Below the pieces are notes generated by a model. The model was not told the origin of the DNA and ran no database searches. It was given only the letters and a program-made list of their open reading frames with translations. From positions 1 to 64,000 of IMG/VR virus record IMGVR_UViG_3300028572_000010: 64,000 nucleotides of DNA; one strand, written 5' to 3'. Source of the stretch: a virus. The translations under genes and the position numbers were made by a program. Below, one piece after another: positions 8,699 to 60,061 of this stretch. Each line of letters begins with the position of its first letter. Position 1 is the stretch's first letter.

Positions 8699-8718
8699 CA
8701 GATATATGCGCTATAATA

Positions 8719-8747
8719 TTGACAGCGTGGTAGCTAATGTGTACTGT
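8719..8747 (+). promoter_or_regulatory. leaderless-type promoter of homing endonuclease
   Basis: TTGACA (8719-8724), 17-base spacer, TACTGT (8742-8747), then exactly 6 bases to ATG at 8754. The geometry is identical to the element in front of 34591. Confidence 0.7.
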
Positions 8748-8753
8748 CATTAT

Positions 8754-9404
8754 ATGGATTTAACTAATATAACAGCAGAGACAGCATATACGTTAGGATT
8801 TATCTGGGCCGACGGGTCTATATCTAAAGAAAATAAAATTAAAATAGCTATAAAACAAGTTGATGCAGTAATTATTGAACCAACACTTATGAAAGCCTGG
8901 AATTGGAATATACGTAGAAATATACAAAAAACAAATCCACCAGGGCAATTACAAATGAGTTTTCAAAAAGGTAGTGTAGAATTAGCAACTAAATTAATTA
9001 GTTACAATTATAGAAGTAAAGATCAAGCTCCTACAATATTAAGCATTATACCTGAAAACCTAACTCATTACTGGTGGAGGGGTTACAGTGATGGGGATGG
9101 TTGTTTTTGTATATCCAGAGATGGTCATTGTTCTTATAGTATTTGTGGTCCCTACACTCAAGATTGGTCTGCTTTTGAGAAATTAGTATTACCTATGGAG
9201 ATTCATTATAGAATAGGGAGGGAGATTAATAAAAAAACTGGACATAAGGGTTCTAGAATAGTTATACCTAGCATTTGTGGTGGTTATAAATTCGGTAACT
9301 ATATTTATCAAGGCTTTCTAGAAGACAGAATTGGACTGACTAGAAAGTATGAGAAATATCTACAATTCAACTTACCAAGAAATGAAAGAAGAAGGCCTGC
9401 TTAA
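8754..9404 (+). CDS. free-standing LAGLIDADG homing endonuclease
   Basis: 216 residues. Two LAGLIDADG-type helices are visible: LGFIWADGS near residue 14 and WWRGYSDGDG near residue 120, each carrying the acidic residue that binds metal. The family cuts long DNA sites to spread its own gene. The start at 8754 is chosen over 8706 because a full TTGACA-N17-TACTGT-N6 element ends right before it, and the extra 16 residues would overlap that promoter. It is the only plus-strand gene between minus-strand virion genes, and its 3' end overlaps the opposing gene by four bases, consistent with insertion of a mobile gene. Confidence 0.85.
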   Translation: MDLTNITAETAYTLGFIWADGSISKENKIKIAIKQVDAVIIEPTLMKAWNWNIRRNIQKTNPPGQLQMSFQKGSVELATKLISYNYRSKDQAPTILSIIPENLTHYWWRGYSDGDGCFCISRDGHCSYSICGPYTQDWSAFEKLVLPMEIHYRIGREINKKTGHKGSRIVIPSICGGYKFGNYIYQGFLEDRIGLTRKYEKYLQFNLPRNERRRPA

Positions 9405-19147: not shown

Positions 19148-19463
19148 CTTGACCCTGACCATTACGATGACCCTGCCCTTGACCCTGACCCTGACCCTGA
19201 CCATGACGATGACGATGACCCTGACCCTGACCCTGACCATGACCTTGTCCCTGACCATGACCTTGACCCTGACCATGACCTTGACCTTGACCCTGACCTT
19301 GACCTTGACACTGACTCTGACCCTGACCTTGACCATGACCTTGACCCTGACCCTGACCCTGACCCTGACCCTGACCCTGACCCTAACCTTGACCCTGACC
19401 CTGACCCTGACCCTGACCCTGACCCTAACCTTGACCTTGTCCCTGACCATGACCTTGACCCTG
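19148..19463. repeat. hexamer array 1, (TGACCC/T/A)n
   Basis: About 50 units of TGACCN or close variants. On the minus strand it reads GGGTCA/AGGTCA. Around 19341-19420 runs of GGG separated by TCA meet the pattern for a G-quadruplex. Two units read CCCTAA and put TAG stops in the frame that is open in array 2. No spacers, so not a CRISPR array. Confidence 0.9.
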
Positions 19464-19472
19464 CGTTATCAT
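19425..19472 (-). pseudogene. truncated copy of Gly-Gln repeat gene
   Basis: The start ATG at 19472 and the first codons (MITQGQGHGQGQGQG) match the gene at 20304, but a TAG at 19427-19425 ends it after 15 codons. The upstream flank is duplicated too, so this is the decayed or switched-off copy. Confidence 0.5.
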
Positions 19473-19573
19473 ATTGTGCTCGTAGTAAAGAAATGTTCAT
19501 GTTGTTTGTTATTGTTAGCTGGCAAAAAAATTAGATGACAAAATAGTAAGTAAACTGCTTACTAAATATAATT

Positions 19574-19610
19574 AGGAGAGGCTGAAGACTATTCTTCTCC
19601 AACCCCTCCT
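19574..19610 (-). terminator. hairpin after the 120-residue gene
   Basis: GGAG-rich inverted repeat around an AAGA/TCTT core, a copy of the hairpin at 20439. On the minus strand it follows the stop at 19622 and is followed by an AT-rich run. Confidence 0.55.
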
Positions 19611-19621
19611 ATTAACTTCAC

Positions 19622-19984
19622 TTACTTGGTCTGGGTAGGTAACACCGGAATCATTACTGCATCCAAAATCGCAGCCCTACCAATAATCACTTTCTGGCAA
19701 GCCGGGTACATCTCAACTTCATTGAAATTACCAGAACTGACCGCTGCTGAAAACTTACCATCATCTGCAACCCATGCGGCCTGGGAGAGGACCAACTCAT
19801 GTTCCGATACCTGCTCTAACTGGCCGGTATAGTGATGGGTAACGGTCCGTACGAAATATTTATCACCGACTTGGTACGGATGGGAGTTATTTTCAGGAGC
19901 AGGTTTGGAACAGAGGTTTAACGACTGAGCAATTTTTGCCAGTTCCTTGACTTCCCCAATAGTTAGTTCATTAATGTTAATCAT
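19622..19984 (-). CDS. conserved phage hypothetical protein
   Basis: 120 residues. Contains YFVRTVTHHYTGQLEQVSEH, LVLSQAAWVADDGKF and KVIIGRAAILDAV, motifs I recognise from hypothetical proteins present in many phages. It appears to be a small beta-rich soluble protein. It lies between the two hexamer arrays. GC content is higher than in the virion genes. Confidence 0.65.
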   Translation of the reverse strand: MININELTIGEVKELAKIAQSLNLCSKPAPENNSHPYQVGDKYFVRTVTHHYTGQLEQVSEHELVLSQAAWVADDGKFSAAVSSGNFNEVEMYPACQKVIIGRAAILDAVMIPVLPTQTK

Positions 19985-20304
19985 ATTTTTGTTGTTGTTT
20001 GTTGTTTGTTGTTTGTTGTTTGTTGTTCGTTGGTAGAGTTGATCAGAACTTTATTATTTTTACCATGTCCCTGACCTTGACCCTGACCTTGACCTTGACC
20101 TTGACCCTGACCTTGACCTTGACCTTGACCTTGACTCTGACCATGACCTTGACCCTGACCTTGACCATGACCTTGACCCTGACCTTGACACTGACCATGA
20201 CCCTGACCTTGACCCTGACCCTGCCCTTGACCTTGACACTGACTCTGACCCTGACCTTGACCCTGACCTTGTCCCTGACCATGACCTTGACCCTGCGTTA
20301 TCAT
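19981..20304 (-). CDS. Gly-Gln repeat protein
   Basis: 107 residues: MITQ followed by about 38 Gly-Gln, Gly-His or Gly-Ser pairs and a tail rich in Asn, Gln and Thr. The frame is one of three that the hexamer array leaves open, but it is the one with an ATG in a conserved, duplicated 5' flank. A disordered low-complexity protein is expected. The array could equally be a DNA or RNA element with only incidental coding. Confidence 0.4.
   Translation of the reverse strand: MITQGQGHGQGQGQGQGQGQSQCQGQGQGQGQGQGHGQCQGQGQGHGQGQGQGHGQSQGQGQGQGQGQGQGQGQGQGQGHGKNNKVLINSTNEQQTTNNKQQTTTKI
20064..20296. repeat. hexamer array 2, (TGACCC/T/A)n
   Basis: About 38 units of the same family as array 1, with more TGACCT units and no TAG on the minus strand. 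The 3' flank (20297-20384) is nearly identical to that of array 1 (19464-19553). Confidence 0.9.
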
Positions 20305-20374
20305 ATTGTGCTCGTAGTAAAGAAATGTTCATGTTGTTTGTTGTTCGCTAGCAAAAAAAATTAGATGACAAAAT

Positions 20375-20416
20375 AGTAAGTAAACTACCTATGAGTATCT
20401 AGGTAGTTTACTTACT
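20375..20416. terminator. 17-bp perfect hairpin
   Basis: AGTAAGTAAACTACCTA (20375-20391) and its exact complement (20400-20416) with an 8-base loop. Array 1 has a shorter version (AGTAAG/CTTACT) at the same relative place. Could be a terminator or an operator-like site upstream of the Gly-Gln gene. Confidence 0.6.
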
Positions 20417-27585: not shown

Positions 27586-27840
27586 ATGATAAATATTAAT
27601 TCTTATATCGTTACAGAAAATTCAGTGGTTAGTGGAGTTACTTCTGGAGTTGAGGCATTACTTAAAGATGTGAATAACTTTAGCAAACCTGAGGTAGTTA
27701 TAAATACAATCGCTAGTTCGGTAATGGATGAACTATGCAATGTATTTGATTTCGGAGATCAGCCGCTAAGATTCACCCCAGACTTGATGCGGAAAATACT
27801 GCAATTAGCTAAGGAGCAGGAAAAGGAAGAGAAAGCTTAA
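27586..27840 (+). CDS. hypothetical small protein
   Basis: 84 residues, soluble, helical C-terminus (DLMRKILQLAKEQEKEEKA). Its own promoter lies directly upstream. The stop overlaps the stop of the opposing helicase gene by four bases. Function unknown. Confidence 0.5.
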   Translation: MININSYIVTENSVVSGVTSGVEALLKDVNNFSKPEVVINTIASSVMDELCNVFDFGDQPLRFTPDLMRKILQLAKEQEKEEKA

Positions 27841-30692
27841 TTGTAGTTAAGCCAAGATTTAGGTTCTTGATTCTTGGCTATTAAATTAGTTATTTCTTGA
27901 TTAAGATTATCTTTTGGTTTACTGATTGAATTTCTAATATATGAATCTGTACCAGTAGGTTTGGGATTGAATGTAAGTTTATCCAATAAACTAGGTTTTG
28001 GTGTGGCAAAATAACGTTGCACTAAAACCTTTCTCTTTTCTGGAGGCAAACTATCATGACTATGGAAACGTACTGATCTTCCGATAACTTGTCTCTCTTT
28101 AGGAAGGTTCCAAAAAGGTTCCAAAAGTTGTGTCAAATTTGTAGCCTTCAAATCCAATCCTTCAGCCCCAGCTCCTGATACTAATAATGCTCTTAATTTA
28201 TTAGCATTATAATCTTTAACTGCCTGGTCTCTTATAGTAGGTGTTACAGCTCCACTAAACTCTCCAAATGGTATATTATTCTTTCTTAATAATGATTCAT
28301 AAGGTCTAAGACCATTATTAAGATAATTACTATATACTAGAGCTTTATAGTTTGGATCTTGTTTTAATTGTATTTGTAAAAACTTAAAAGCTGCATCTAT
28401 TTTAGGGGATTCCACGTCTCTTAAATTTTTAGTAAATCCAGCAGTTGAATTGCTTACTTGTCTAGGTCCACTTAAAAATGCTCGCATACCTTCTAATTCA
28501 CCACGTCCAGGAGGTAAATTATGTTTAATTCGATAACGTGTCCAAAATGGTGTCTTTCCGAGTATTGTATCATATATCTCTTGTTGTTTAGCACCCATAG
28601 GAACATTAACTTCTTGCTCCGTCACAGTAGGATATCCTTCTTGAGTAGGTTTATAGTAGTCAACATACTTATCCAGAATCTTAGATAGTTGAGCTTTATT
28701 CTGTAGCTTATATTGAATGCCTGGAGAAACTCCCATTAATCTACCAAAAAATCCAGGTTTAACTTCTTCCTGTTTAAAATATTGTTTTTTAAACTCAGAT
28801 AAATTATTAGGTAATACTTGTTTCTTTGCTACTAAGTTAACAAGATTACTTAATTCAGTAGGATCATTTAGAATTGGAGTTCCTGAAAGGAGAAGGCGCT
28901 TGGCTGGATTCGTTTTAACCAATGCTTGATATAATTCACTATTACTATTTTTAGCTTTTTGAGCTTCATCTACTATCTGCAAACCAGTATTGTATATTGG
29001 AGTATTTAACTTAGAATTAGCAAATCTTTGTTGACTAATTAAGTTGATATTAGAAGGATTAGAATTGCCATACCATCTCTGCAACTCTTTACGATAGTTG
29101 GATTTTAATGAAGCTGGAACAATGATATCAGTCTTAGGTAATCCTAATGCTTTCCAGGATTCAATACTTTCGCGTGTATTGTGCGTAACTATACAATGTT
29201 CAGTAATATATAGATGAGAAGGGTCATCGATTGCAATACAGATTGTCTCTTTTTTTCCAACATATTCTATACTTTTTATATATCTAGTTGGTTTATATTT
29301 AGTCTTAGGAATTACTTGAATTGCTTTTCTGTGTAATCTAAATGGATTGATATTTGGTGGTAAACTTAACCAAACCCTATAACATAAAGCTCCTTTCTTT
29401 TTTTCTCCTTTATATGAATATGTTGGAATTCTAGTTGTTATCTTTGCTAAACCTCCTAGTGATTCAACAAGGAATTGCACACCATCTGCTAACTGTTTTG
29501 AGACGGACTCATAAACTATAGCCATACCATCTTTACTTACAGTACCATCAGTATCCATTAACCCTTGTAATAATGCTATGCGAGATTTCACTGTGTTAAA
29601 CATATAAATATCAGGTATAAATTTTGTAAAACAATTCATACCTTGTAATTTTAATTCTTTAAATGCTTGAACAATGTAACTGTTATATCCTTTTGGTTTA
29701 CCTAATCCATAAGTATATTTAGAATATTTTTTAAGAGTAAAATTTGGAAATAAAGACTTAATTGATTGCAGAATTTCGTCATCTGCTGTTGTTATCGCAC
29801 AGCCACCTCCACAAATACTACCATCTCCTAAAATCAAACCAACAAAATACGGGTCTAGTGGAAGTTTTCTATATTTAAAATGAATAGGTTTCACAATAGG
29901 AATAGTATAATTTAAACTATTATCATTAGATAATACTGTATCTTTAATTTCGCTTGTACTCCTGACTTTACCTACCCACCTATATTTAAATTGATCCTTG
30001 CTTTTAACGTAATTTTTACGTTCACATCTAGATTGAGTGAACCATAAATGAGAATCATCACATTCTATAGTAGCACCATCCCTAAAAGTAATTTTATACA
30101 CATCTTTATACCCTTGAGGATAGACTCCAGTCACATTAGCTTTCACACCATTAACAGAAATCACTTCTGTGTTTTGTTTTATATCTTCTATATTTATCCA
30201 CCCTGTAGGTGTTAATATCTTTGAGCCTATAACCAATCCTTTTCCACTACCCATCCCATGATAAAGCACTAACCCTGAAGTATTCTTATCTTGAATCTTC
30301 TTAATTACTCTAGCTTGTTGAGGTTGTAACGCTTCTTCACCAGCCTCCTTCTTCAAAGGTACGGTTCTAGGATTCCCACCTACTACTGGATAACCCTCAG
30401 CCCTTAACTTCTTTGCCAACCATTCCTCGGTTCTTTCAGCTTTATGAAATGGCATGGGATTTAAATCTTTATAATGTTCAGGCCTAAGTCTAAGCCCATG
30501 ATTCTTTACCCAGATATTGGCTTTTAGTCCAGTTTTATGTTTCTCGAATCTAGCTTCAGGACTCAAACCAGTCTCTCCTACATAAAGTGGAGGTAGTTCT
30601 GGATTGTAGTTAGGATTCAACTTTAAAAACTTTTTTTTAGCTAAGACCTCCTTATCCAATTCAACTACATATACATTGTGTCGGTCTGTCAT
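27837..30692 (-). CDS. GIY-YIG / SNF2-like helicase with intein
   Basis: 951 residues from ATG at 30692, just after the upstream stop; earlier in-frame Mets lie in that gene. Residues 1-110 have NVYVVELD ... PLYVGETGLSPEARFEKH, a GIY-YIG nuclease-type domain. A superfamily 2 helicase follows: Walker A GMGSGK-T, interrupted after Lys151 by an intein (residues 152-505); motif II DEAQ near 575; LLSGTPILND motif III; SGAGAEGLDL motif V; QVIGRSVRFH motif VI. SNF2-like ATPases act with viral RNA polymerases in poxviruses; a similar transcription or DNA-remodelling role is inferred. Whether the nuclease domain is active cannot be seen. Confidence 0.85.
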   Translation of the reverse strand: MTDRHNVYVVELDKEVLAKKKFLKLNPNYNPELPPLYVGETGLSPEARFEKHKTGLKANIWVKNHGLRLRPEHYKDLNPMPFHKAERTEEWLAKKLRAEGYPVVGGNPRTVPLKKEAGEEALQPQQARVIKKIQDKNTSGLVLYHGMGSGKGLVIGSKILTPTGWINIEDIKQNTEVISVNGVKANVTGVYPQGYKDVYKITFRDGATIECDDSHLWFTQSRCERKNYVKSKDQFKYRWVGKVRSTSEIKDTVLSNDNSLNYTIPIVKPIHFKYRKLPLDPYFVGLILGDGSICGGGCAITTADDEILQSIKSLFPNFTLKKYSKYTYGLGKPKGYNSYIVQAFKELKLQGMNCFTKFIPDIYMFNTVKSRIALLQGLMDTDGTVSKDGMAIVYESVSKQLADGVQFLVESLGGLAKITTRIPTYSYKGEKKKGALCYRVWLSLPPNINPFRLHRKAIQVIPKTKYKPTRYIKSIEYVGKKETICIAIDDPSHLYITEHCIVTHNTRESIESWKALGLPKTDIIVPASLKSNYRKELQRWYGNSNPSNINLISQQRFANSKLNTPIYNTGLQIVDEAQKAKNSNSELYQALVKTNPAKRLLLSGTPILNDPTELSNLVNLVAKKQVLPNNLSEFKKQYFKQEEVKPGFFGRLMGVSPGIQYKLQNKAQLSKILDKYVDYYKPTQEGYPTVTEQEVNVPMGAKQQEIYDTILGKTPFWTRYRIKHNLPPGRGELEGMRAFLSGPRQVSNSTAGFTKNLRDVESPKIDAAFKFLQIQLKQDPNYKALVYSNYLNNGLRPYESLLRKNNIPFGEFSGAVTPTIRDQAVKDYNANKLRALLVSGAGAEGLDLKATNLTQLLEPFWNLPKERQVIGRSVRFHSHDSLPPEKRKVLVQRYFATPKPSLLDKLTFNPKPTGTDSYIRNSISKPKDNLNQEITNLIAKNQEPKSWLNYN
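29178..30239 (-). other. class 3-like intein in helicase Walker A
   Basis: 354 codons. It starts with Gly (GLVIGSKILTPTGW), not Cys or Ser, and ends CIVTHN followed by Thr. Three features fit class 3 inteins: Trp in block B (SHLWFTQS), Cys in block F (ETICIAID) and Thr at +1. Removing it restores GMGSGKTRES. It carries LAGLIDADG motifs GLILGDGS and GLMDTDGT, so it can home. Confidence 0.85.
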
Positions 30693-30693
30693 A

Positions 30694-31371
30694 TCAGTAA
30701 TTATAGTAAGTCCCTTTATCCACCCAATTAGTACCACCTTGTAGATTATATTGATGAGGCAAGCTTGTAGTTATTGGATCATTAGGATTCCTATCTTTAA
30801 TAATTCTATTTATTATATTCACTACGTCTGGGTATTCATTAGTCTTAAATTGACTTGGAATTAATGGACCATAATGCCTGGGAGGGATTTGAACAACGTT
30901 AGTAAGATTAGGGAATAATTTACGGTACATAGCTGGAGTAGCAAACCCTTTAAGCACTTCGTTTGGACTCACATTAGTATTGGAGCAATCCCCACCATTA
31001 CAAGCAGTAGTATAAATATTATTGATATTGTTAGTAGCTGGACCAATAAGTTTAGCCAATGTTTGAGGAGTATAAGTTAGTGGTTCATTGTTATAAAGCA
31101 AGTTTTTAGAATTATTAGAATCACTTTGAAATGCATATTCTCCATTAATAGCACTATCAGGACCACCGTGAGCATTTATATTAAGGGTATTACCACCTTT
31201 ATTAACAAAATTATGCATATTTGGAGGGAGACCACCAACAGTATAAGCATTGTGTGGTAATGAAATCATCGGAATTTTTGGAGGTGTAGGAGGTGTAGGA
31301 GGTGGAGGAGGTGGAGGGAGTGGGCCAGCAGCCTTGATAAAACCATTAATAAATGCATCTAACTTATTCAT
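30694..31371 (-). CDS. tagged caspase-like (clan CD) putative protease
   Basis: 225 residues. N-terminal tag DAFINGFIKAAG, then a run of prolines, then a folded domain. Residues about 67-80 read NINAHGGPDS and about 120-128 IYTTACNGG; this His-Gly ... Ala-Cys-x-Gly pair is the catalytic layout of clan CD peptidases (caspase, CHAT, C80). A Lys/Leu-rich helix (YTPQTLAKLI) lies between, as in C80 proteins. It may be packaged with the DNA and act on host proteins or other virion proteins; that part is inference. Overlaps the secreted-protein gene by eight bases. Confidence 0.45.
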   Translation of the reverse strand: MNKLDAFINGFIKAAGPLPPPPPPPTPPTPPKIPMISLPHNAYTVGGLPPNMHNFVNKGGNTLNINAHGGPDSAINGEYAFQSDSNNSKNLLYNNEPLTYTPQTLAKLIGPATNNINNIYTTACNGGDCSNTNVSPNEVLKGFATPAMYRKLFPNLTNVVQIPPRHYGPLIPSQFKTNEYPDVVNIINRIIKDRNPNDPITTSLPHQYNLQGGTNWVDKGTYYNY

Positions 31372-31714: not shown

Positions 31715-31769
31715 AAATCTAACCTAGTTTAATGTATATTCCAGGTTAATTAAAGACTAAAGTTTGAGG

Positions 31770-31805: not shown

Positions 31806-34559
31806 ATGAGTTATACTGTACTTAATAAGGGAAATTTTGAGAAGGTGGACAAACTAAATGAAGATCATATATCCATGCCTTCGAGTAGGGATTTATTTGC
31901 TTTACCTACTAACATGATTACTGGGCTAAATTCAGTTTCCGGCGGGCGTGTGTTACTAGGAGCCAAGGCTTCTCTCCAAGCTATACCTTTAGTAAATCCT
32001 GAACGTCCGTTAGTAGAAAGTTCAGATGACACTAACAAAGAAAGTACTCAAGAACTATATGGTAAACATTATTTATCTGTAACTGCAACTAAACCTGGTA
32101 CTGTTACTGAAGTTACTGAAAATCATATTAAAGTAGATAATACAGATAAAACCAAGTCTACCTATCAACTATATAATAACTTTCATTTAGGCAGGAAAAG
32201 CTTTATTACTCATACCCCTAAAGTGAAGGTTGGTGATAAAGTTAAAACTAATGAAGTAATAGCTTACAGTAATTATAATGATAAAGAAGGTAATATGGCG
32301 ATGGGAACTAACCTTACTACTGCTATAATCCCGTACCGCTCAGACAACTTTGAGGATGCTTTTGCAGTGACTGAAAGTGGTGCTAAAAAGTTGGCAGCAG
32401 AACAAATGATCAATTTTAGTATTGAAGAGAAATTTGGAGTAGAGGCAGGCAAGGATAAATTTGTAGCACTATTTCCTAATAAATATACGAATAATCAAAT
32501 TAAAAATATAGATTCAGATGGAGTGGTTATAGTAGGGTCTAGATTGAAAGCTGGAGACCCGGTAATCCTGGCTTACTCACCCAGAGCATTAAAGAGTACA
32601 GATTTGGCATTAGGTAAGCTGAGTAAAGTATTAAAACATGCATTCAAAGATAATTCAGAAGCCTGGGACTACGAACATGATGGAGAAGTAGTGGATGTAA
32701 CCAAACATGGCCCACTTATTACAGTACATATCAAGACGGTAAGAAGTCTATTACCTGGTGATAAGATTTCTAATTACTTTGGAGCTAAGGGTGTAACGAA
32801 GATTGTATCAGACTCACAAGCTCCACTACTACCTAATGGGAAGCCAGTTGATATCATGCTTAACTCCATGTCCATCACGTCAAGAGTTGCACCAGCCTTA
32901 GCCATAACTCTAGGCCTTGGTAAATTAGCTGAGAAGACTGGTAAGACTATTAAAATGGATCAGTTTAGAAAGGATTCATCTATTAAGAATGTAATTAATG
33001 TATTAAAGAAGAATAATATAAATGATACTGAACAACTATATGATCCAATTACTGGTAGAAATATTGAAGCAGTTGTAGGTCCATTATTCTATAGTAGGTT
33101 AACTCATATTAGTGAAGATAAACTAAGTACTAGAAGTCAGGGGTCCGGATACAGTTTCGACCGGCAACCAAGTAAGTCAGCAGTGGAAGGTGGTTCATCA
33201 AAGAGAATAGGAAATTTAGGTACTACAGCTTTGCTAAGTCATGATGTCAGACATGTATTGGAGGATATAGGTACTGTTAAAGGTACTCAGAATGATGAAT
33301 TCTGGCGTGCTATTAAATTGGGCCAAACCCCACCCAGCCCTAAAGTTCCATTCATCTTTAACAAGTTCATAGATAGTTTAAAAGCTGCCGGTATTAATGT
33401 AGATAGAGTTGGTAATACCTTTAATATCCTACCTTTAACAGATAAGGATACTACTGCTTTGAGTAATGGTGAAATTAAGAAACCTTCATTATTCAAGCCA
33501 CATCAAGAAGAACTAATACATGAACCTGGCGGACTATTTGATCCTAATATAATAGGCATATTAGGTGACAAGTTTAATCACATAAATCTTAATCATCCCA
33601 TACCTAATCCTATTAGTGAGGATTATCTCAGAAAGTTGTTAGGAGTTACCAAGTTTAAGTTTAATGATATGGTAGTGGATGGGGAAATGGAAAAAGCCCT
33701 TAATAATATAGATCTGGATAAGAAGATAGAAGAAATGAAGAAGTATATAGGTAGTGAGAAGAAGACTAGAAGAGATGATGCCGTTAAATTGTTAGAATTT
33801 CTCACTACACTAAAAGAACATAAGTTACATCCTAAAGATTTGATGTTGCATAAAGTACCTATTCTACCAGCCCAATACAGACCTGCTAGTAAGATGGGTG
33901 ATGTAGTATTAACTAGTGATGTTAATAATCTATATAAAGACCTCATACTAAATAACAATGCACTTAAAAATACTGAGAATGTGCCGGACGAAGTAGTTAG
34001 GAAATTAAAACAAAATGAATATGATGGAGTAAAAGCTGCCTTTGGTTTGGGTGATCCAATTAATAAGAAACACCAGGATAAGAATGTTAAAGGTATATTA
34101 GCTACTATGTTTGGATTAAAGGGTGGAACGGCTAAAAGTACAATGTTTCAGAGTAAGGTGGTTAATAAGAGTCTGGATTTGGTGGGAAGAGCTGTGTTAA
34201 CTCCAGATACTAGATTGGATGTAGACCAGGCTAGTGTACCTCAAGATATGCTGTGGCAGATATATAAACCTTTTGTTATTAGAAGGTTGGTTATGAAGGG
34301 TGTACCAGCTATTAGTGCGGTTGATTATGTTAAAAAACATAGTCCATTAGCAGTTATGGCATTAAAGGAAGAGATGGCAGTAAGACCTGGTATTATAACG
34401 CGAGATCCAGCCTGGCATAAATATAATCTATTAGGGTTTAATTTAATTGCTAATCCAAATTCTAAAGATAAAACTATTAAAATGAATCCATTAGTATTTA
34501 AGGGGTATGGTGCGGATAGTATTGTAGATTATATTATTTATAGAGAGAAAATTAATTGA
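31806..34559 (+). CDS. RNA polymerase beta C-part fused to beta' N-part, ending in N-intein
   Basis: 917 residues from ATG at 31806. Residues about 28-570 match the C-terminal half of RpoB: GGRVLLGAKASLQAIPLV, NFEDAFAVTES, GDKISNYFGAKGV (from 318), VDIMLNSMSITSRV and the C-terminal clamp helix region. From about 575 the sequence is beta' N-part: GGLFDPNIIG, the switch/rudder region, LWQIYKPFVIRRLV and MNPLVFKGYGAD. Asp904 is the first Asp of the catalytic NADFDGD motif. The following 13 codons (34518-34556) are intein sequence and end at TGA. Beta-beta' fusions exist in some bacteria. The beta lobe is absent. Confidence 0.9.
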   Translation: MSYTVLNKGNFEKVDKLNEDHISMPSSRDLFALPTNMITGLNSVSGGRVLLGAKASLQAIPLVNPERPLVESSDDTNKESTQELYGKHYLSVTATKPGTVTEVTENHIKVDNTDKTKSTYQLYNNFHLGRKSFITHTPKVKVGDKVKTNEVIAYSNYNDKEGNMAMGTNLTTAIIPYRSDNFEDAFAVTESGAKKLAAEQMINFSIEEKFGVEAGKDKFVALFPNKYTNNQIKNIDSDGVVIVGSRLKAGDPVILAYSPRALKSTDLALGKLSKVLKHAFKDNSEAWDYEHDGEVVDVTKHGPLITVHIKTVRSLLPGDKISNYFGAKGVTKIVSDSQAPLLPNGKPVDIMLNSMSITSRVAPALAITLGLGKLAEKTGKTIKMDQFRKDSSIKNVINVLKKNNINDTEQLYDPITGRNIEAVVGPLFYSRLTHISEDKLSTRSQGSGYSFDRQPSKSAVEGGSSKRIGNLGTTALLSHDVRHVLEDIGTVKGTQNDEFWRAIKLGQTPPSPKVPFIFNKFIDSLKAAGINVDRVGNTFNILPLTDKDTTALSNGEIKKPSLFKPHQEELIHEPGGLFDPNIIGILGDKFNHINLNHPIPNPISEDYLRKLLGVTKFKFNDMVVDGEMEKALNNIDLDKKIEEMKKYIGSEKKTRRDDAVKLLEFLTTLKEHKLHPKDLMLHKVPILPAQYRPASKMGDVVLTSDVNNLYKDLILNNNALKNTENVPDEVVRKLKQNEYDGVKAAFGLGDPINKKHQDKNVKGILATMFGLKGGTAKSTMFQSKVVNKSLDLVGRAVLTPDTRLDVDQASVPQDMLWQIYKPFVIRRLVMKGVPAISAVDYVKKHSPLAVMALKEEMAVRPGIITRDPAWHKYNLLGFNLIANPNSKDKTIKMNPLVFKGYGADSIVDYIIYREKIN
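34518..34556 (+). other. N-terminal intein fragment, 13 residues
   Basis: SIVDYIIYREKIN directly follows the catalytic-motif residues GYGAD. Its Ser1 is the expected splicing nucleophile. If the 43 bases from 34558 to 34600 are removed, the frame runs on as INYKYTLVPISDF, which then looks like the start of a normal Ser1 intein of the archaeal polymerase type. Confidence 0.75.
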
Positions 34560-34584
34560 CAAGTTCAACTAGTCACCGTATTGT
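34556..34584 (+). promoter_or_regulatory. leaderless-type promoter inside the split intein
   Basis: TTGACA (34556-34561), 17-base spacer, TATTGT (34579-34584), then exactly 6 bases to ATG at 34591. TTGACA overlaps the TGA stop of the upstream gene. Geometry is identical to the homing endonuclease promoter at 8719. Confidence 0.65.
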
Positions 34585-34590
34585 GTCTAT

Positions 34591-36039
34591 ATGATTAATT
34601 ATAAATATACACTAGTACCTATTTCAGATTTCCCTAGAATAGAAAATTCAGCCACTACTACTATAAATGGTAATATCCTTTATGATGTACCTAGTAATGT
34701 AGAAGTAAAATCATTAAACCTTATAACTGGTGAAGTAGATTGGGTAAATCCAAAGACATTCTCGATTCATCCTAATGTACCTTTATATTTGGTACAATTT
34801 ATAGATGGGGATTTTATATTTGCAGCCAAAGATCATAGTTTATTAGCTTATACTGATAGTGGTATTGAAGAAGTTGATACCGAAGAGGCAGTAGGTAGGT
34901 ATTGTCCTAGTGATGTTACAACTATAGCACCCAATATTCAATCAAGTGTATTAGCTGAAGGTATGATGGGTACTAGAGGAATGAAAGGAATACGAGGAAA
35001 AGGATTTGTTAAAAATTCATTTAACTTGCAACTTAATTATAAAACCGGACTTTTTATAGGAATGGTTTTAGGTGATGGTTGGGTAGATAATGCTAATCAA
35101 CTTTTCTTAGCCGGTTCTACCAAAGAAAAATTAATGAATAGAAAAGTATTTGCTGATTTATGTAATAGTGAATATCTTCCTTATGAAAATGGAGTTAAAG
35201 AAATAGATAGAGTTAGTGAGAATATGATGGGGCAATTTACTTCTAGAGGTAAAACTAGAGCTTCTTGTGCCTGGTTTAATAAGTGGTTAAAAGAGCAGAT
35301 AGGGAGTGGAGCTTTTAATAAGAAAATACCTACTTTTAGTTTAAACGGTCCTGAAGAACATCTACTAGGTATATTAGATGGGTTAATCTCAACTGATGGA
35401 ACAGTAAGTGTCAGTTCTTCTAATAAAACAGTTATAAATATAAGTATCTGCACATCATCAATTCATTTAATTAACGGTTTAAGATATATGAGTAAACGGT
35501 TAAATTTAAATTATGGAGTATATAAAGGGGCATCTAGGCTGAGTAGTAAAGATAATTTCTCCTTCAGATTTCATACTGGGACATTTAAAAAGTTAGTTGA
35601 AAGAACAAAATTTAGAATAAGTCATGAGTTGAAGAAGGAAAAATTAGAGAATAGCTTAAAAGATATAACAGGTATAGGTGATAACTTTAATGACTTAGTA
35701 CCACTTCCTTCAGAAACTGTTAAAAAAAATATAATTACAGCTATTAATAATAAATATAAATTACAAAAGAATAAGGAACTTTATAATTTAAAATATAGAT
35801 TAAGCCAGGAATTTAAAACAGATAGATTTCGTAAAAGCACTTTAAAAGAAATAATTGAAATACTTCTAGTTGAGTTAAAGAATAATGAACAATGGATATC
35901 ATATTTAGGTAAGGTGTATAATGGTAGTTTAAAATGGAAGAAAGTTAAAAGAGTAACTAAGTTACAATCTAATACTGCTTACGATTTGGAAATACCAAAC
36001 TACGGAAGTTTCTTAACTATAGGAGGATATACAAAAAAT
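34591..36039 (+). other. C-terminal intein fragment with LAGLIDADG domain
   Basis: 483 codons ending Lys-Asn before Ser at +1 (36040). The penultimate residue is Lys rather than the usual His. The two LAGLIDADG helices carry Asp residues (LGDGW, STDGT), so the endonuclease could be active. Confidence 0.8.
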
Positions 36040-36312
36040 TCCGACGGAGACCAACTTAATGTCCATATTCCAGGCACTGAAGAAGCACGTAAAGAAGTTA
36101 TAGCTAAAATGATGCCTAGCAAAAATTTATTATCTGTTAAATCTTTTCAACCTGTATTAATCCCTAGTAATGAAGCAGCTTTGGGCCTTTATGGACTAAG
36201 TACAGAAAACAAACATAACACTCCTAAAAAATATAAAACTGAACAAGAAGTAGTTGCTGCATATAACAGAGGTGATTTAGAGCCAGGAGACAACATAGAA
36301 ATAGAGAAATGA
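34591..36312 (+). CDS. C-intein with homing endonuclease plus beta' active-site C-extein
   Basis: 573 residues. Residues 1-483 are the large C-part of an intein: a block B-like DFIFAAKDHSLLA, LAGLIDADG motifs GLFIGMVLGDGW and LLGILDGLISTDGT, and a C-terminal end YDLEIPNYGSFLTI...YTKN. The last 90 residues begin SDGDQLNVHIPGTEEA and match RpoC just after NADF, including the second and third catalytic Asp, then SNEAALGLYGLS. Joined to the upstream product this gives GYGAD-SDGDQ. Expression is from its own promoter or by coupled events (see findings). The protein needs splicing to give any active polymerase. Confidence 0.85.
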   Translation: MINYKYTLVPISDFPRIENSATTTINGNILYDVPSNVEVKSLNLITGEVDWVNPKTFSIHPNVPLYLVQFIDGDFIFAAKDHSLLAYTDSGIEEVDTEEAVGRYCPSDVTTIAPNIQSSVLAEGMMGTRGMKGIRGKGFVKNSFNLQLNYKTGLFIGMVLGDGWVDNANQLFLAGSTKEKLMNRKVFADLCNSEYLPYENGVKEIDRVSENMMGQFTSRGKTRASCAWFNKWLKEQIGSGAFNKKIPTFSLNGPEEHLLGILDGLISTDGTVSVSSSNKTVINISICTSSIHLINGLRYMSKRLNLNYGVYKGASRLSSKDNFSFRFHTGTFKKLVERTKFRISHELKKEKLENSLKDITGIGDNFNDLVPLPSETVKKNIITAINNKYKLQKNKELYNLKYRLSQEFKTDRFRKSTLKEIIEILLVELKNNEQWISYLGKVYNGSLKWKKVKRVTKLQSNTAYDLEIPNYGSFLTIGGYTKNSDGDQLNVHIPGTEEARKEVIAKMMPSKNLLSVKSFQPVLIPSNEAALGLYGLSTENKHNTPKKYKTEQEVVAAYNRGDLEPGDNIEIEK

Positions 36313-38641: not shown

Positions 38642-40981
38642 ATGTCTGAGGTAACAACAGTAGGCAAAATCCTGCTTAAGCATTACTCTCCTGCTAACTC
38701 TCATTCATTTATAGAAAGCAAAGATTTGGATAAGAAGAATATAGGTGCTTTCTTCTCTAATTTAGCAGAGCATAATGAAGATAGTTATAAGAAAGTAGTA
38801 TCAGATTTAACTAGACTTGGGTTTGAATCAGCTACTAGGTTGGGTAGTACTGTCAGACTAGGTGACTTGCTTCCACCCTCCTTTAAAGATGAGAGATTTA
38901 AAGAACTCAATAAAGAGATTAAGAGCATAAAGGATAAAAAGTTACCTAAAAAGAAAGAAGATGATGAACTAACAAATTTGCTCAACAAGTTTTCTGACAC
39001 TGCAAATAAGGAAATAATAGAAGAAGGCCTTAAAGATAATAAGACTCTAGCCAAGGTAGTTAAAGCCGGAGCGAGAGGGAGTCCCGAACAATATCGTCAA
39101 ACTATTTTCTCCCCAGTAGCCGTTAACGATAATAAAGGCGGTATTCTAACTGATTTTATTATTGATAGATCTTTTGCTGAAGGATTAACCTTGCCCCAAT
39201 ATTTGGCACATACTTTTGGTGCGAGACAAGCCAGCGCGGCCACAAAATTATCAGTGGCAGAAGGTGGGTTTTTAGGCAAGCAATTAGCTAGAGCAAACAT
39301 GACAATGGTGATAGAAGAACATGATTGTGGTACTCATAATGGAATACCTGTAAAAACAAATGATAATGATTACATCGGTTCGTTCTTAGCTCATCCTATA
39401 GACAAATATCACTATAATAATGAAGTTACCTCTAGTATGCTGGGTATTCTAAAAAGCAAAGGCATAGAAGAGATTGTAGTTAGAAATCCTATAACTTGTG
39501 AAGCTAGTCATGATGGAACTTCTAGTGCTCTTTGTCAATTATGTGTGGGTATCAGAGGTAAAGGCTTGTCTGAACTTAATTCTTTTATTGGAGTTGTTGC
39601 CGGTACTTCAGCAGCAGAACCAGTAGCACAAGGGGCGTTAAACTGTTTAGCTGAAGGAACACTAGTAAGAATGGCAGATTATTCTATTAAAGCTATTCAA
39701 GATATAAAGGTCGGAGATATGGTGCTTGGCTCTGATAACGCTGGTCAAACCTCTCCAGTCAAAGTTCTAAGGTTATTCAATCAAGGATTACAACCTGTTA
39801 ATAAATATATATTTATAGATAATAAAGATAAAGTAATTGAACTATATGCTACAGAGAATCATAAGATACTTTGTGAAACCCTGGAATGTAGTAATGTATT
39901 AACAGAAATGCCTCTAAAAGATATTGATGAAACTATAGATGTAGTTACTACAAATGATTATTGGGTAGTACTATACAATAAACCAGAGTATCTAGGATTA
40001 ATACAATGTTGGGATATTGAAGTAGATAGTAAAGATGCTTTATTTGTATTAGCGAATGGCTTAATAGTACATAATAGTAAGCACAAGGGAGGTAGTGCAA
40101 CTGGTTCTAATCAATTTGGTGGCTTTAAATACATCAATCAATTATTTAATATCCCGGATTCATTTGTCCATGAAGCCCCAATAGCTGACTCTGATGGTAA
40201 GATAGAAGAAGTAAGAGTAGCACCACAAGGAGGTCATTATATAGTTATTAAGCATGATAATGGAAAACTTGAAGAATATTATGTACACCCAGATTTGAAA
40301 GTATTGGTTAAATCAGGCCAGCTAGTTGAAGAAGGTGATGTGTTAAGTGATGGTATACCTAATCCAGCTAAAATAACAAAGCATAAAGGTATTGGAGAAG
40401 GTAGAAGGTATTTCTCCAAAGCTATTAAAGATACATTTGAAACTAGTCAATTAGGTGGAATAAATAAACGTAATTTTGATATTATAAGTAAAGGTTTAAT
40501 TACTCATGTTAAAATAACCAATCCTAAAGGCTTAGGGAATAACTTGCCAGACAGTATAGTAAATTATCATACACTGGAGAAAGCCTATTCTCCTAGAACT
40601 AATAGTAAGAAGGTCAGAACTGATATGGCTCAAGGTTTATACTTGGAAATACCTGAATTACACTATACAATAGGAACTAGAATCACCAGTACTGTAATTA
40701 ATGAGTTGAAGAAACATAATATCGATTATGTTACGGTAAATGAGACAAAACCTGAATTTGAACCAGAAATGCAAAGATTATTAGATGTCCCAGCACATGA
40801 ACATGACTGGATGCATACCTTATATAGTACTAATCTGGAACGTAGATTAATAAAGGCTGTCAATACTGGAGCTTCTAGTAGTTTGGAGGGACCATCTCCA
40901 ATACCAGGGCTTGCATATGCCAAAGGATTTGGGACCCATAAATTTGCAGAAGAACTGGAAGAGCAGTTATCATTTGAGTAA
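38642..40981 (+). CDS. RNA polymerase beta' C-terminal piece with mini-intein
   Basis: 779 residues, 635 after splicing. N-terminal TTVGKILLKH resembles the RpoC segment that follows the active site. EEHDCGTHNG (from 225) matches the RpoC region before the trigger loop. CQLCVGIRGKGLSELNSFIG and VAGTSAAEPVAQGALN match the CYGRDLA ... AAQSIGEPGTQL block. An intein follows at residues 335-478, then SKHKGGSATGSNQF (trigger loop). The rest fits the beta' jaw and C-terminus. Together with 31806 and 34591 it makes an almost complete beta'. Confidence 0.9.
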   Translation: MSEVTTVGKILLKHYSPANSHSFIESKDLDKKNIGAFFSNLAEHNEDSYKKVVSDLTRLGFESATRLGSTVRLGDLLPPSFKDERFKELNKEIKSIKDKKLPKKKEDDELTNLLNKFSDTANKEIIEEGLKDNKTLAKVVKAGARGSPEQYRQTIFSPVAVNDNKGGILTDFIIDRSFAEGLTLPQYLAHTFGARQASAATKLSVAEGGFLGKQLARANMTMVIEEHDCGTHNGIPVKTNDNDYIGSFLAHPIDKYHYNNEVTSSMLGILKSKGIEEIVVRNPITCEASHDGTSSALCQLCVGIRGKGLSELNSFIGVVAGTSAAEPVAQGALNCLAEGTLVRMADYSIKAIQDIKVGDMVLGSDNAGQTSPVKVLRLFNQGLQPVNKYIFIDNKDKVIELYATENHKILCETLECSNVLTEMPLKDIDETIDVVTTNDYWVVLYNKPEYLGLIQCWDIEVDSKDALFVLANGLIVHNSKHKGGSATGSNQFGGFKYINQLFNIPDSFVHEAPIADSDGKIEEVRVAPQGGHYIVIKHDNGKLEEYYVHPDLKVLVKSGQLVEEGDVLSDGIPNPAKITKHKGIGEGRRYFSKAIKDTFETSQLGGINKRNFDIISKGLITHVKITNPKGLGNNLPDSIVNYHTLEKAYSPRTNSKKVRTDMAQGLYLEIPELHYTIGTRITSTVINELKKHNIDYVTVNETKPEFEPEMQRLLDVPAHEHDWMHTLYSTNLERRLIKAVNTGASSSLEGPSPIPGLAYAKGFGTHKFAEELEEQLSFE
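39644..40075 (+). other. mini-intein in beta' trigger-loop region
   Basis: 144 codons. Starts CLAEGTLVRMADYSIKAIQD, has block B ATENHKIL, and ends LIVHN with Ser at +1, all canonical for class 1. No LAGLIDADG motif or other endonuclease insert, so it cannot home by itself. Confidence 0.9.
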
Positions 40982-46029: not shown

Positions 46030-47421
46030 ATGCGCACACCTGAAGAATTGGTAAAATTTGCAGTCCATGAGATAGTTACTGAGATAAATACTGGTACTCC
46101 ACCTCAAGAAGCAGCTACTAAGGTTGCTAAATCACTGGAACTTAATCATAACTTTATTAAGCGTAGTTGTGAAGCTATTAATGTAGCTTTGCACTATGAT
46201 CACTTTAAGAAGCATCCAGACTCAAAAGCTGATGATTTTCCCATAGTTGATGCAGCCAAAGTTGCTGAAGATATATATAGCGGAAAAGAAAAGACTGCCT
46301 CAGAATTGGAATCAGAACTATTCTCTTCTTTTCAAATCCAAGAAACTGCTCCTAAATTTGCAAGATATTTGGAGCCAGGACCTTATAAAGAAGCTTATGC
46401 TAAACTAATACTTACTGAAGATGTAGGTAAAAATGAATTAAGTAAATCTGGTGCTTATGATAAGAGTGTAAAATATATTAGTAAATTACAAAAACAAGCC
46501 TATGATGCTGAAGCAGATAGATTAGATGCTGAATTTGAAGTAAATAAAAACTTCTGCAATATACTTAGAAAATTCGCTGAGAGTAATGATTGTAGATCTG
46601 CCTGGCATGAATTTGAAACTAGCGTATTTAGTAAGTATGGTAATGCTAGTAATGGATATTTGGATTTGTTATATAAAACCTCTAATCTAAAAGAAGAAAG
46701 AGGTGTTCATGATTCCAACATTAAATTAGCTGCACTATGTAATGAAACTGAACTATATGATAAGTTTATTAATAGTGTAACATATCTTAAAGAAGCTACC
46801 GTAAAGTCAGAAGATGCAGCCTATAACCTTAATTTTGAACAGAGTTATTTTAAAGGATTGTTTAAACAAGATATAGAAAAGATAGCAGATACTGATTCTT
46901 TGTTAGCCCAGGTCGATGCATCTATCAAGGCAGAAAGAAGTAAGATTGCCAAGGCTGACCCTGAAGATCCGGTTATGACTTGTATTGCTGAAAAGAAAGC
47001 TGCGGTAGAGGAGGAGTTTGATAGTAGAATTAAGTCTGCAATTGACCTCATGAATATAACTAAAAGCTTTTCAGGTTATAAGGATAAACAAGGTAAACCA
47101 GAATTGAGTGCCAGTACTAATACTCCTGAAGCGAACAGGGATAGAGCATTATTACTACAAGAACTTGTAGCTACTGATCCTATTATAAGTAAGTTTCCTA
47201 CTCATCATGTAGTAGATGCTTACCAACAAATGCTTAGAATTGCTCCAGAATTAAGTAGTGAGAAGGAAATTACTAGAGCATTCCTTAGACAAGCTGGTGC
47301 GAGTCAGGCCATTTCACCATTTGAGGCAGCTGACTTAATTAAGGCGAATACAGGTTTATTTAAGCAACATCAACTACAAAGAGGACTACAACCGCCTCCT
47401 AATCCAGTAGCAGGGGAATAA
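46030..47421 (+). CDS. putative inner virion protein, helical
   Basis: 463 residues, almost all helix, rich in Ala, Lys, Glu. Starts MRTPEELVKFAVHEIVTEIN; motifs EAATKVAKSLELNHNFIKRS and FEQSYFKGLFKQDIEKIAD (the latter again tag-like). A core or inner-body role is possible given the position ahead of the protease. No enzyme motif. Confidence 0.5.
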   Translation: MRTPEELVKFAVHEIVTEINTGTPPQEAATKVAKSLELNHNFIKRSCEAINVALHYDHFKKHPDSKADDFPIVDAAKVAEDIYSGKEKTASELESELFSSFQIQETAPKFARYLEPGPYKEAYAKLILTEDVGKNELSKSGAYDKSVKYISKLQKQAYDAEADRLDAEFEVNKNFCNILRKFAESNDCRSAWHEFETSVFSKYGNASNGYLDLLYKTSNLKEERGVHDSNIKLAALCNETELYDKFINSVTYLKEATVKSEDAAYNLNFEQSYFKGLFKQDIEKIADTDSLLAQVDASIKAERSKIAKADPEDPVMTCIAEKKAAVEEEFDSRIKSAIDLMNITKSFSGYKDKQGKPELSASTNTPEANRDRALLLQELVATDPIISKFPTHHVVDAYQQMLRIAPELSSEKEITRAFLRQAGASQAISPFEAADLIKANTGLFKQHQLQRGLQPPPNPVAGE

Positions 47422-48455: not shown

Positions 48456-51014
48456 ATGATTCTTAAATTTACTGGTAATAATGACTTTGATTTTGATTGT
48501 GAAAGTGTGGTGCTTTTAAAAGACTCAGGCAAAGAGTTAAAGAAGAGGGCTTCTGCTAAATCATTATTGAAGTACGAAAAGACTCCAAATCAAGAGGATT
48601 TGCATATAATTGCTGTAGGATCATATGAAGGTACAGGATGTTTCTTTAAAGGAGCACCAGTACAAACTATCAATGGTATAAAACCTATAGAAGATATAAA
48701 AGTTGGAGATTTAGTACTTACACATAAAGGCAGATATAGAAAAGTGCTAAAAACCTACGAAAATGATTTTAGTGGAGTTAAAGTATCATTAGATATTGTT
48801 AGTCTGTGTGATAGAATAGAATGCACTGATAATCATCCTATACAAGTAATTAAAGCTGTAGATTTTAGAACTAAACATCGCTGTCCTTCATTATTAGATG
48901 ATGGTGTGAATCCCAAAGATGTATTGGATGATATTATAAGCAAAGCCCCCTATATTCCAGCTAGTGAGATTAAACCTGGAGATTATGTATTAACTCCTAT
49001 TAATATAGATAATGAAGATAAAAAAGAAGTATTTTCTGAAGATGATGCTTATTTGTTTGGTTATTACTTAGCTGAAGGATGTTTGGCGAAAGAATATAGA
49101 GAAGATAGAAGTCATTGTGGTGAGTATACAAAAATCCTGTTTACTATGGCGGTTGGGGATCAGCCTTGTATTGATAAGATCCAATCTATTATAAAGAAAC
49201 TGAATGGGGCCGAAACTAGTATTCAAAAATCATTTACTAGTGAATATGGCAGAAGATTTTCGTTCCAAAATTATGAAAAAGCCCAACAATGCCTAAAACT
49301 ATTTGGTTGTCATTCCACTATAAAATTCTTATCACCTATAATATTCCAGCAATCTATTGAGTGGAAACTTAAGTTCTTAGCTGCTTATTTTGATGGTGAT
49401 GGACATGTTATAGGACCTGATTCAAATGGAGCAGCCAGATATATAGGTTCAATGTCAGCCTCCACAGCTTCTAGAAATCTAGCTTATGATTTACATCGGT
49501 TATTGGCTTCTTGTGGTATAACTTCGAATGTTTATAAAGGAATGAATAAACACTCTAATGGATGCTTTGGAAAAACTGACCATGTTATTTATACTGTAGG
49601 GGTTGGGAGTTGTCATTCGAATAAAATACTACAATATACTCTTCGACTAGCTCCATCAAGTAAACAACCAAAATATCTTGCAGGTAGATCTTGGATTAGT
49701 AGTAATCATTTAGTATTACAAGTTGGACTGGTTGAACTATCTGAAATAGAAGATACAATAAAGTATAATCTAGAAGTTGAAGAAGATAATACATATGTAG
49801 TGGACATCCAAGTACATAATAGCAATCGCAACGGCGATTGCTTTTTAGAGAAGGATTGTATCAAAAATCATCATTATTTCTCTGATAGTAAAAGAGCTGT
49901 GCATAGGCATCATCAAAATAAACCAAATGATCCTAAGTATGGAACTATAAAAGCTTCAGCTTATAATGACAAGATGCGTAGAATAGAATTAGTAGTAGGA
50001 TTGGATAGAGATAAATGTGCAGATATTCTAGATGAGCAAGAACGAACAGGTAATACGAATTGGAGTATGGCTGCAAAAATGGCCTCTGACCTATGCTCTT
50101 GGTGTGGTCATAGAGCTAAAACAGAGAATGATAGATGTGATTGCGTTAAGAATCATTTAGGAGAAATTAATAAAGAGGGTGAAATGTGCCGAATGATTAA
50201 TACTCCGGACCCTAGATGGTTTGAGATTAGTTATGTACGTAGACCTGCTGACAGGATTGGTATGAGCTTATCCAAACTAGCGTCAGATTTAACTTATAAA
50301 CCACTTCCTCCCTCTCACTTCCTTAATCTATACAGTGATATTTATATACCTGATGAATTAATGATTAGTAAGAAAGCTTCGGATAAAAGGGAATTACTAA
50401 CGAAATTAGCAGAATTAGAAAAGTATGTGGATGCTGTAACTAAAGGTAATCCAGTTACTAGTAAGGATAAGTTTATTAAGGAACATGGACATAAACTTAA
50501 GCATACTCCTAATATAGATAGTAATAGCATAGATTCATTACGTAAACTAGATCCAGGTACTGTATTGAAGACATTGGCAGATCATGGAATAGTTTTAAAG
50601 CCTGAGGATTTTAGTAGATATGTGTTTGATGATAAGGTTAAGCCTGAGCGAGTAGAAGGAATGAAGACACATTTACCTCATATCTATAATAAGCTGGATA
50701 ATGATAAGGCTGTAAACTCTGAAACATTTGATCCTAGCCTGCATACTCATACTCCTCATGATTTGGATAAGACGGTTAAAGGTTTGGAGGAAGGGCATAG
50801 TTTGAAAGAAGGTCCAGTAGTTAGAAGACTAATGATTGTAATTTGTGGTAGTGGGAATATTAAGAGAGAAGAACAAGAACCTACTAAAGAAGCATGTGAC
50901 CTGGAATTTGCAAAGAAGTATGCGGAGTATCAGCTAGCTAGTTTAAACTACATTAATGAACAAGGTAAGCTAACTGATGATATTCTACTTAATACTATTT
51001 TAATGAATCAGTAA
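48456..51014 (+). CDS. putative prohead maturation protease with intein
   Basis: 852 residues, 458 after intein removal. Exteins join as GSYEGTG-SNRNGDCF. The blocks KNHHYFSDSKRAVHRHHQNK, RRIELVVGLDRDK, CSWCGHRAKTENDRCDCVKN and WFEISYVRRPADR match the family of phage head maturation proteases (YEGTGxNRNGD; FFDISxVxxPAD), in which the His and Ser form the active site. Such proteases cut scaffold and N-terminal targeting peptides during head maturation. Position ahead of scaffold and capsid genes fits. The acidic and helical C-terminus (from about residue 640) may be a scaffold-type extension. Confidence 0.7.
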   Translation: MILKFTGNNDFDFDCESVVLLKDSGKELKKRASAKSLLKYEKTPNQEDLHIIAVGSYEGTGCFFKGAPVQTINGIKPIEDIKVGDLVLTHKGRYRKVLKTYENDFSGVKVSLDIVSLCDRIECTDNHPIQVIKAVDFRTKHRCPSLLDDGVNPKDVLDDIISKAPYIPASEIKPGDYVLTPINIDNEDKKEVFSEDDAYLFGYYLAEGCLAKEYREDRSHCGEYTKILFTMAVGDQPCIDKIQSIIKKLNGAETSIQKSFTSEYGRRFSFQNYEKAQQCLKLFGCHSTIKFLSPIIFQQSIEWKLKFLAAYFDGDGHVIGPDSNGAARYIGSMSASTASRNLAYDLHRLLASCGITSNVYKGMNKHSNGCFGKTDHVIYTVGVGSCHSNKILQYTLRLAPSSKQPKYLAGRSWISSNHLVLQVGLVELSEIEDTIKYNLEVEEDNTYVVDIQVHNSNRNGDCFLEKDCIKNHHYFSDSKRAVHRHHQNKPNDPKYGTIKASAYNDKMRRIELVVGLDRDKCADILDEQERTGNTNWSMAAKMASDLCSWCGHRAKTENDRCDCVKNHLGEINKEGEMCRMINTPDPRWFEISYVRRPADRIGMSLSKLASDLTYKPLPPSHFLNLYSDIYIPDELMISKKASDKRELLTKLAELEKYVDAVTKGNPVTSKDKFIKEHGHKLKHTPNIDSNSIDSLRKLDPGTVLKTLADHGIVLKPEDFSRYVFDDKVKPERVEGMKTHLPHIYNKLDNDKAVNSETFDPSLHTHTPHDLDKTVKGLEEGHSLKEGPVVRRLMIVICGSGNIKREEQEPTKEACDLEFAKKYAEYQLASLNYINEQGKLTDDILLNTILMNQ
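48639..49820 (+). other. full-length LAGLIDADG intein in prohead protease
   Basis: 394 codons. Starts CFFKGAPVQTINGIKPIEDI, block B CTDNHPIQ, LAGLIDADG motifs LFGYYLAEGCL and LAAYFDGDGHV, and ends DIQVHN with Ser at +1. A complete class 1 intein. Confidence 0.92.
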
Positions 51015-57290: not shown

Positions 57291-57318
57291 TTGACTTAAT
57301 TATATAATTAGATATATT
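57291..57318 (+). promoter_or_regulatory. sigma70-like promoter of HNH gene
   Basis: TTGACT (57291-57296), 16-base spacer, TATATT (57313-57318), then 8 bases to ATG at 57327. Confidence 0.6.
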
Positions 57319-57326
57319 AGAGAATT

Positions 57327-60026: not shown

Positions 60027-60054
60027 TTGACAATTTATTTCTTTCTGATAAGGT
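60027..60054 (+). promoter_or_regulatory. sigma70-like promoter of third HNH gene
   Basis: TTGACA (60027-60032), 16-base spacer, TAAGGT (60049-60054), then 7 bases to ATG at 60062. Confidence 0.55.
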
Positions 60055-60061
60055 AGTAAAC

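Follow-up and report, generated by a model that had tools for sequence, protein, structure and literature searches.

A phage RNA polymerase gene whose intein is divided by a 43-nt insertion with a predicted leaderless promoter

The IMG/VR record IMGVR_UViG_3300028572_000010, of which the first 64,000 nucleotides (positions 1-64,000, here called the window) were analyzed, comes from a phage (genome G000) that encodes its own multisubunit RNA polymerase (RNAP). In this phage the catalytic loop of the RNAP beta' subunit is interrupted by an intein, and the intein in turn is divided between two mechanically called open reading frames (ORFs). The start of the upstream gene at 31806 was set by comparison with the relative IMGVR_UViG_3300049830_000142 (L018/G001); the ORF itself reaches back to a TTG at 31764. 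The locus comprises the following features:

31806..34559, plus strand: RNAP gene, the C-terminal half of beta fused to the N-terminal part of beta' (Pfam Rpb2_6 E 5e-45, Rpb1_1, Rpb1_2)
34518..34556, plus strand: N-intein fragment (IntN), 13 amino acids (aa), SIVDYIIYREKIN, first residue Ser1 (boundary after GYGAD from the extein alignment and the empty site)
34551..34557, plus strand: left copy of the 7-nt direct repeat ATTAATT (sequence reading)
34556..34561, plus strand: -35 element TTGACA, overlapping the upstream stop TGA 34557-34559
34557..34599, plus strand: 43-nt insertion, placed equally well at 34551-34593 because of the repeat (repeat and joined frame)
34579..34584, plus strand: -10 element TATTGT, 17-nt spacer from the -35 element, 6 nt (GTCTAT) before ATG 34591-34593
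34591..36312, plus strand: downstream ORF, 573 aa, a C-intein with LAGLIDADG endonuclease followed by the beta' C-extein (profile matches)
34591..36039, plus strand: C-intein fragment (IntC), ending in YTKN with the terminal Asn (sequence reading and extein alignment)
34594..34600, plus strand: right copy of ATTAATT (sequence reading)
35362..35541, plus strand: LAGLIDADG endonuclease motif region (PF14528, 31.6 bits, above cut-off)
36040..36309, plus strand: beta' C-extein from Ser+1, SDGDQLNVHIP... (alignment, profile)

The upstream ORF closes with the 13 intein residues followed by TGA; the downstream ORF begins with Met and a second, repeat-derived copy of Ile-Asn, after which come the other 480 intein residues. 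Joined, the intein has 493 residues and sits in the catalytic loop as GYGAD/S...N/SDGDQ (slashes mark the junctions). Its limits, from the Ser of SIVDYIIYREKIN to the ...YTKN before SDGDQ, follow from the extein alignment and from the relative L018, in which the upstream protein is 78% identical and the site is empty (GFGAD/NDGDQ). The site is also uninterrupted in Salmonella phage Arash, in Vibrio phages D69 and D181 and in L019. The extein spliced in silico aligns without gaps through the catalytic loop with gp206 of Arash and with D69 and D181, at about 30% identity over about 1000 residues.

The downstream ORF matches LAGLIDADG_3 (E 8e-8), rpoC TIGR02386 at residues 480-572, and Pfam Intein_splicing (E 2.7e-6), the last with 27.7 bits against a cut-off of 35.8. 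The nucleophiles Ser1, terminal Asn (N493) and Ser+1 can all be read in the joined intein. A tblastn search in phages found only distant inteins and a DNA search in phages gave no match; a sequence search of the joined intein against the PDB also gave none. An archaeal polymerase intein used as a control query was likewise unmatched, and this control is uninformative. AlphaFold2 modeled the downstream ORF alone with a pLDDT (predicted local distance difference test) of 34.

The original prediction held that TTGACA-N17-TATTGT-N6-ATG lies wholly in a 43-bp insertion, with its -35 element over the stop codon of the upstream gene. This can be read directly at 34556-34593, and in the placement 34551-34593 the insertion contains the whole promoter together with the ATG. 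When the 43 nt are taken out, a single open frame of 1501 codons results. An in-frame repeat of at least 7 nt at the two ORF edges has a frequency of 0.0016 when random stop and ATG edges are drawn from the window. The two ORFs, extein-IntN and IntC-extein, are separated in every frame (TGA 34557, TAG 34570, TGA 34592), which excludes stop readthrough and +1 or -1 frameshifting as a joining route and leaves trans-splicing of separate products or a ribosomal hop over 43 nt as the only ways to join the halves.

No second copy of the insertion was found elsewhere in the genome, and its 25-nt core is absent from viral contigs except those of this phage. The junction is unchanged in three further IMG/VR contigs (four records in total). 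Over the stretches compared, these contigs show no more than one or two base differences from the window and so appear to be separate assemblies of a single lineage.

Whether the hexamers before 34591 mean anything had to be decided from their position, since sigma70-like sites counted without restriction are no more frequent in the genome (88) than in shuffled sequences (78-98) and a hexamer match alone therefore means little. Sites with at least 9/12 matches cluster before gene starts: in the bin 4-7 nt upstream there are 12 in G000, with about 2 per neighboring bin, and 14 in the relative G001, again with about 2. A further 59 kb seen only in G002 has 2 sites in this bin and little positional signal, which indicates that the promoter class is unevenly used across the genome. 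The arrangement is retained, with diverged spacers, at four orthologous gene pairs (27586/43802, 79887/90769, 88488/100795 and 89817/101655) whose proteins are 41-59% identical.

At 34591 the sequence has the geometry of this class, a spacer of 16-18 nt and a -10 element placed 5-8 nt before the ATG. A position weight matrix (PWM) trained on G001 sites only, with spacing penalties set by hand, ranked 34591 sixth among the 4118 ATGs of G000, a score reached by 0.06% of the ATGs in shuffled sequence. The promoter motif before 34591 is more than a chance match, and the evidence supports the view that the insertion carries a predicted promoter of the leaderless class used at other gene starts by the phage and its relative.

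Complementarity to the Shine-Dalgarno (SD) target is weaker at gene starts (-0.58 kcal/mol) than at random positions (-1.22 kcal/mol), and ATG 34591 has no SD pairing at all (+0.6 kcal/mol). Of 160 gene ATGs, 114 (71%) directly follow a T, compared with 29% of all ATGs; the ATG at 34591 does so too. Avoidance of SD sequences and preference for TATG, seen in the window (1-64000) and in the rest of the contig (G000:C1:64001-127352), suggest that the host initiates translation without SD pairing or on leaderless transcripts. In G001 a short ORF with TTGCAA-N17-TACACT-N6-ATG precedes the start of the RNAP gene (L018, about 5938-6019) and perhaps encodes a leader peptide.

Leaderless-type promoters also precede free-standing homing endonuclease genes, which were collected via Pfam searches or by reading. 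Three lie in the window:

8719..8753, plus strand: TTGACA-N17-TACTGT-N6 (TTGACA 8719-8724) before the LAGLIDADG gene 8754-9404, PWM rank 9
57291..57326, plus strand: TTGACT-N16-TATATT-N8 before the endonuclease VII-like HNH gene 57327-57821, PWM rank 4
60027..60061, plus strand: TTGACA-N16-TAAGGT-N7 before the endonuclease VII-like gene 60062-60499, PWM rank 15

Direct reading bears out the earlier statement that the homing endonuclease gene at 8754 is preceded by the same geometry as the intein fragment (TTGACA-N17-TACTGT-N6-ATG); its score is reached by 0.17% of shuffled-sequence ATGs. This gene has an in-frame upstream ATG at 8706, and if that start is used, the promoter is intragenic, inside a slightly longer ORF. 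Of the free-standing homing endonuclease genes, 3 of 4 in G000 and 3 of the 10 scored in G001 have such a site matching in 9/12 positions or more; for all genes the figures are 16/163 and 16/184, about 9%.

The -35 region of the insertion, TTGAC(A)AGTTCAACT (34556-34570), is common in 14 of 15 positions with the leaderless promoter of a helix-turn-helix (HTH)-HNH endonuclease gene in G001 (L046 6407-6393, minus strand). A scan for the shared stretch TTGACNAGTTCAACT matched three other contigs and was uninformative as a lead, two of the matches being at short ORFs only and the third (L067) at a 104-aa ORF of unassigned kind. Further intein-related sequences in the window are a LAGLIDADG intein carried by an SNF2-type helicase (27837-30737, minus strand), a LAGLIDADG match at 49359-49562 within an 852-aa ORF (48456-51014, plus strand) and an intein-like Hint insertion in a beta' C-terminal gene (38642-40981, plus strand); the top 40 leaderless promoters include none on the coding strand of any of the three.

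Repeats of other kinds occur elsewhere in the phage contigs. A sequence of roughly 130 bp at the contig end of G000 (G000:C1:127223-127352) recurs in the window at about 47262-47392 with 99% identity. It also closes contig G003, and the contig ends may thus be repeat breaks. At 19230-20386 there are two copies of about 328 bp with about 90% identity, the second of which overlaps an ORF of low complexity made up of LT repeats.

Starting from what can be read at the locus, namely the repeat-bounded insertion, the promoter class, the split ORFs, the intein and the empty site, we infer a transcription start, leaderless translation, trans-splicing and endonuclease activity in the following way. A contiguous LAGLIDADG intein in the catalytic loop of the phage RNAP beta' subunit would have become a two-gene split intein through a 43-nt insertion that brought in a sigma70-like promoter, an ATG and the stop codon of the upstream gene. 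With initiation 6-7 nt past the -10 element, the transcript would start at or close to the ATG and would thus be leaderless. The upstream protein would consist of extein plus the 13-residue N-intein, and the downstream protein of the remaining intein (about 480 residues) with the endonuclease and the DGDQ C-extein; the halves would associate and trans-splice via Ser1, the terminal Asn and Ser+1 to a working polymerase. The downstream transcript would let the endonuclease be produced on its own schedule, like the T4 intron endonucleases made from internal promoters. We give this reading as a whole, judged from the sequence, a probability of roughly 0.68; that the second piece (endonuclease plus polymerase part) can be made on its own is probable.

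The original prediction is partly supported. It gave the endonuclease its own promoter for the host polymerase; a promoter of the leaderless class is indeed indicated by the position statistics and the PWM, and the host enzyme as its reader is an assumption, the phage having a multisubunit RNAP of its own. It also made the endonuclease independent of the polymerase gene, which agrees with the predicted separate expression and needs correction, because the product of the new transcript carries the beta' DGDQ C-extein and so also forms part of the polymerase. The third proposal, that the insertion was a step toward a split intein, fits in that the gene arrangement of a split intein was created; the proposed order, promoter insertion and then split, is consistent with the locus.

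Several findings weigh against this reading of the locus. The N-intein has 13 residues, below the record-short example of 15, and the -10 element at 34579-34584 matches in only 4 of 6 positions. Block B reads AKDH, in which the His is retained and the Thr replaced by Ala, and the penultimate residue is Lys in place of the usual His; these two substitutions could slow splicing down or abolish it. Being nearly identical, the four records lack the sequence variation that would show selection on the halves. An unsplit homologue of the intein was not found, and the insertion event is therefore deduced from the 7-nt repeat together with the frame that is open once the ORFs are joined.

As a way of joining the halves, the chief alternative is translational bypassing of the T4 gene 60 type, in which the ribosome would take off at AAT 34554-34556, skip 43 nt and land at AAT 34597-34599, yielding a cis-spliced precursor, with the promoter-like sequence incidental. 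The likeness to gene 60 lies in the short gap, the matched take-off and landing codons and the stop codon, here TGA 34557, directly after the take-off codon (PMC5009743), and a hop would not be hindered by the closed frames that keep readthrough and frameshifting from joining the ORFs. However, the stem-loop and SD-like signals of gene 60 were not found here: RNA structure around the gap is not unusual (fold z about -0.5) and the gap is devoid of an SD-like sequence. Moreover, the landing site has an in-frame ATG and the gap a promoter of the class this phage uses, neither of which is expected under bypassing. We consider bypassing improbable and favor trans-splicing, with the second half made from the leaderless promoter. 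If the split intein is real and its promoter inactive or minor, the downstream gene could instead be co-transcribed from upstream and translated by reinitiation 31 nt past the stop codon. Neighboring genes in the operon are often separated by just a few nt, and many genes here lack an SD sequence as well as a leaderless promoter, which would suit such a mode of expression; yet 31 nt without an SD sequence is far, and the promoter match is within the top 0.2% of ATGs, which makes reinitiation an unlikely explanation.

The substitutions in block B and at the penultimate position, together with the very short IntN, could also mean that the intein is damaged or decaying, the insertion having inactivated splicing and left a broken RNAP gene or halves that work unspliced. 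This we hold to be very unlikely: about 1,500 codons are open save for the 43 nt, the nucleophiles S1, N493 and S+1 are retained, several assemblies carry the same junction, and an unspliced extension of 480 residues at the split in the catalytic DGD loop should be fatal.

The promoter-bearing, two-gene split intein favored here can be compared with known systems. N-fragments of 15-37 residues have been described in natural split inteins (PMC13014065, PMC11766414), among them the PolB16 OarG IntN of 15 aa, called record-short in a 2026 paper (PMC13014065), and the other atypically split inteins VidaL (IntN 16 aa) and AceL and GOS TerL (25-37 aa) (PMC13014065, PMC11766414). The phage intein resembles these in a split near the N terminus, a very short IntN and a large IntC, and PolB16 also in its cysteine-less splice junctions. 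It differs from them in the IntN of 13 aa, in its site in the RNAP beta' catalytic loop, in the LAGLIDADG endonuclease that stays in the C-intein, and in that the halves are parted only by a 43-nt promoter-bearing insertion. Fractured genes with split inteins were reportedly described by Dassa et al. in 2009, with the genes split at the intein and associated with endonuclease genes, the endonuclease gene being free-standing between the halves; they differ in this from the present case, in which the endonuclease remains inside the C-intein.

The T4 intron endonucleases I-TevI, I-TevII and I-TevIII have internal promoters of the middle or late class, and the promoter of I-TevI is repressed by I-TevI itself via a target-like site with 15/20 identical positions (PMC2988022). 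In common with the phage intein they are endonucleases of mobile elements within a phage gene, with an internal promoter of their own. They belong to group I introns, however, and their SD-led genes come with RNA hairpins and with middle or late promoters, whereas here the element is an intein with a leaderless-type promoter and the transcript also encodes the C-extein.

Prompted by I-TevI, the reverse complement of the insertion was compared, after the fact and with several sequences, so that the outcome is a lead only. It agrees with the empty-site DNA of G001 (coding for DGDQLN) in 14 of 17 bases (ACGGTGACTAGTTGAAC vs ACGGTGACCAGCTAAAC; pattern ACGGTGAC[C/T]AG[C/T]T[A/G]AAC), a match with a frequency of 0.001-0.007 in controls; the phage's own intein flanks match poorly. 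The operator-like match within 34557-34599 is possibly an I-TevI-type operator and possibly due to chance. That the insertion is a control cassette of leaderless promoter and inverted endonuclease target, with autorepression by the endonuclease in the manner of I-TevI and an intein on its way to becoming a split, self-regulated element, is a doubtful extension.

If the favored reading is true, the locus would illustrate how an intein that is contiguous and carries an endonuclease can turn into a split one, a single small insertion adding stop codon, promoter and start codon together while the endonuclease is kept. Should the halves splice, an N-intein of 13 residues would be shorter than the record-short one of 15 and useful for protein labeling. 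The finding also points to a phage lineage with leaderless promoters that avoids Shine-Dalgarno signals.
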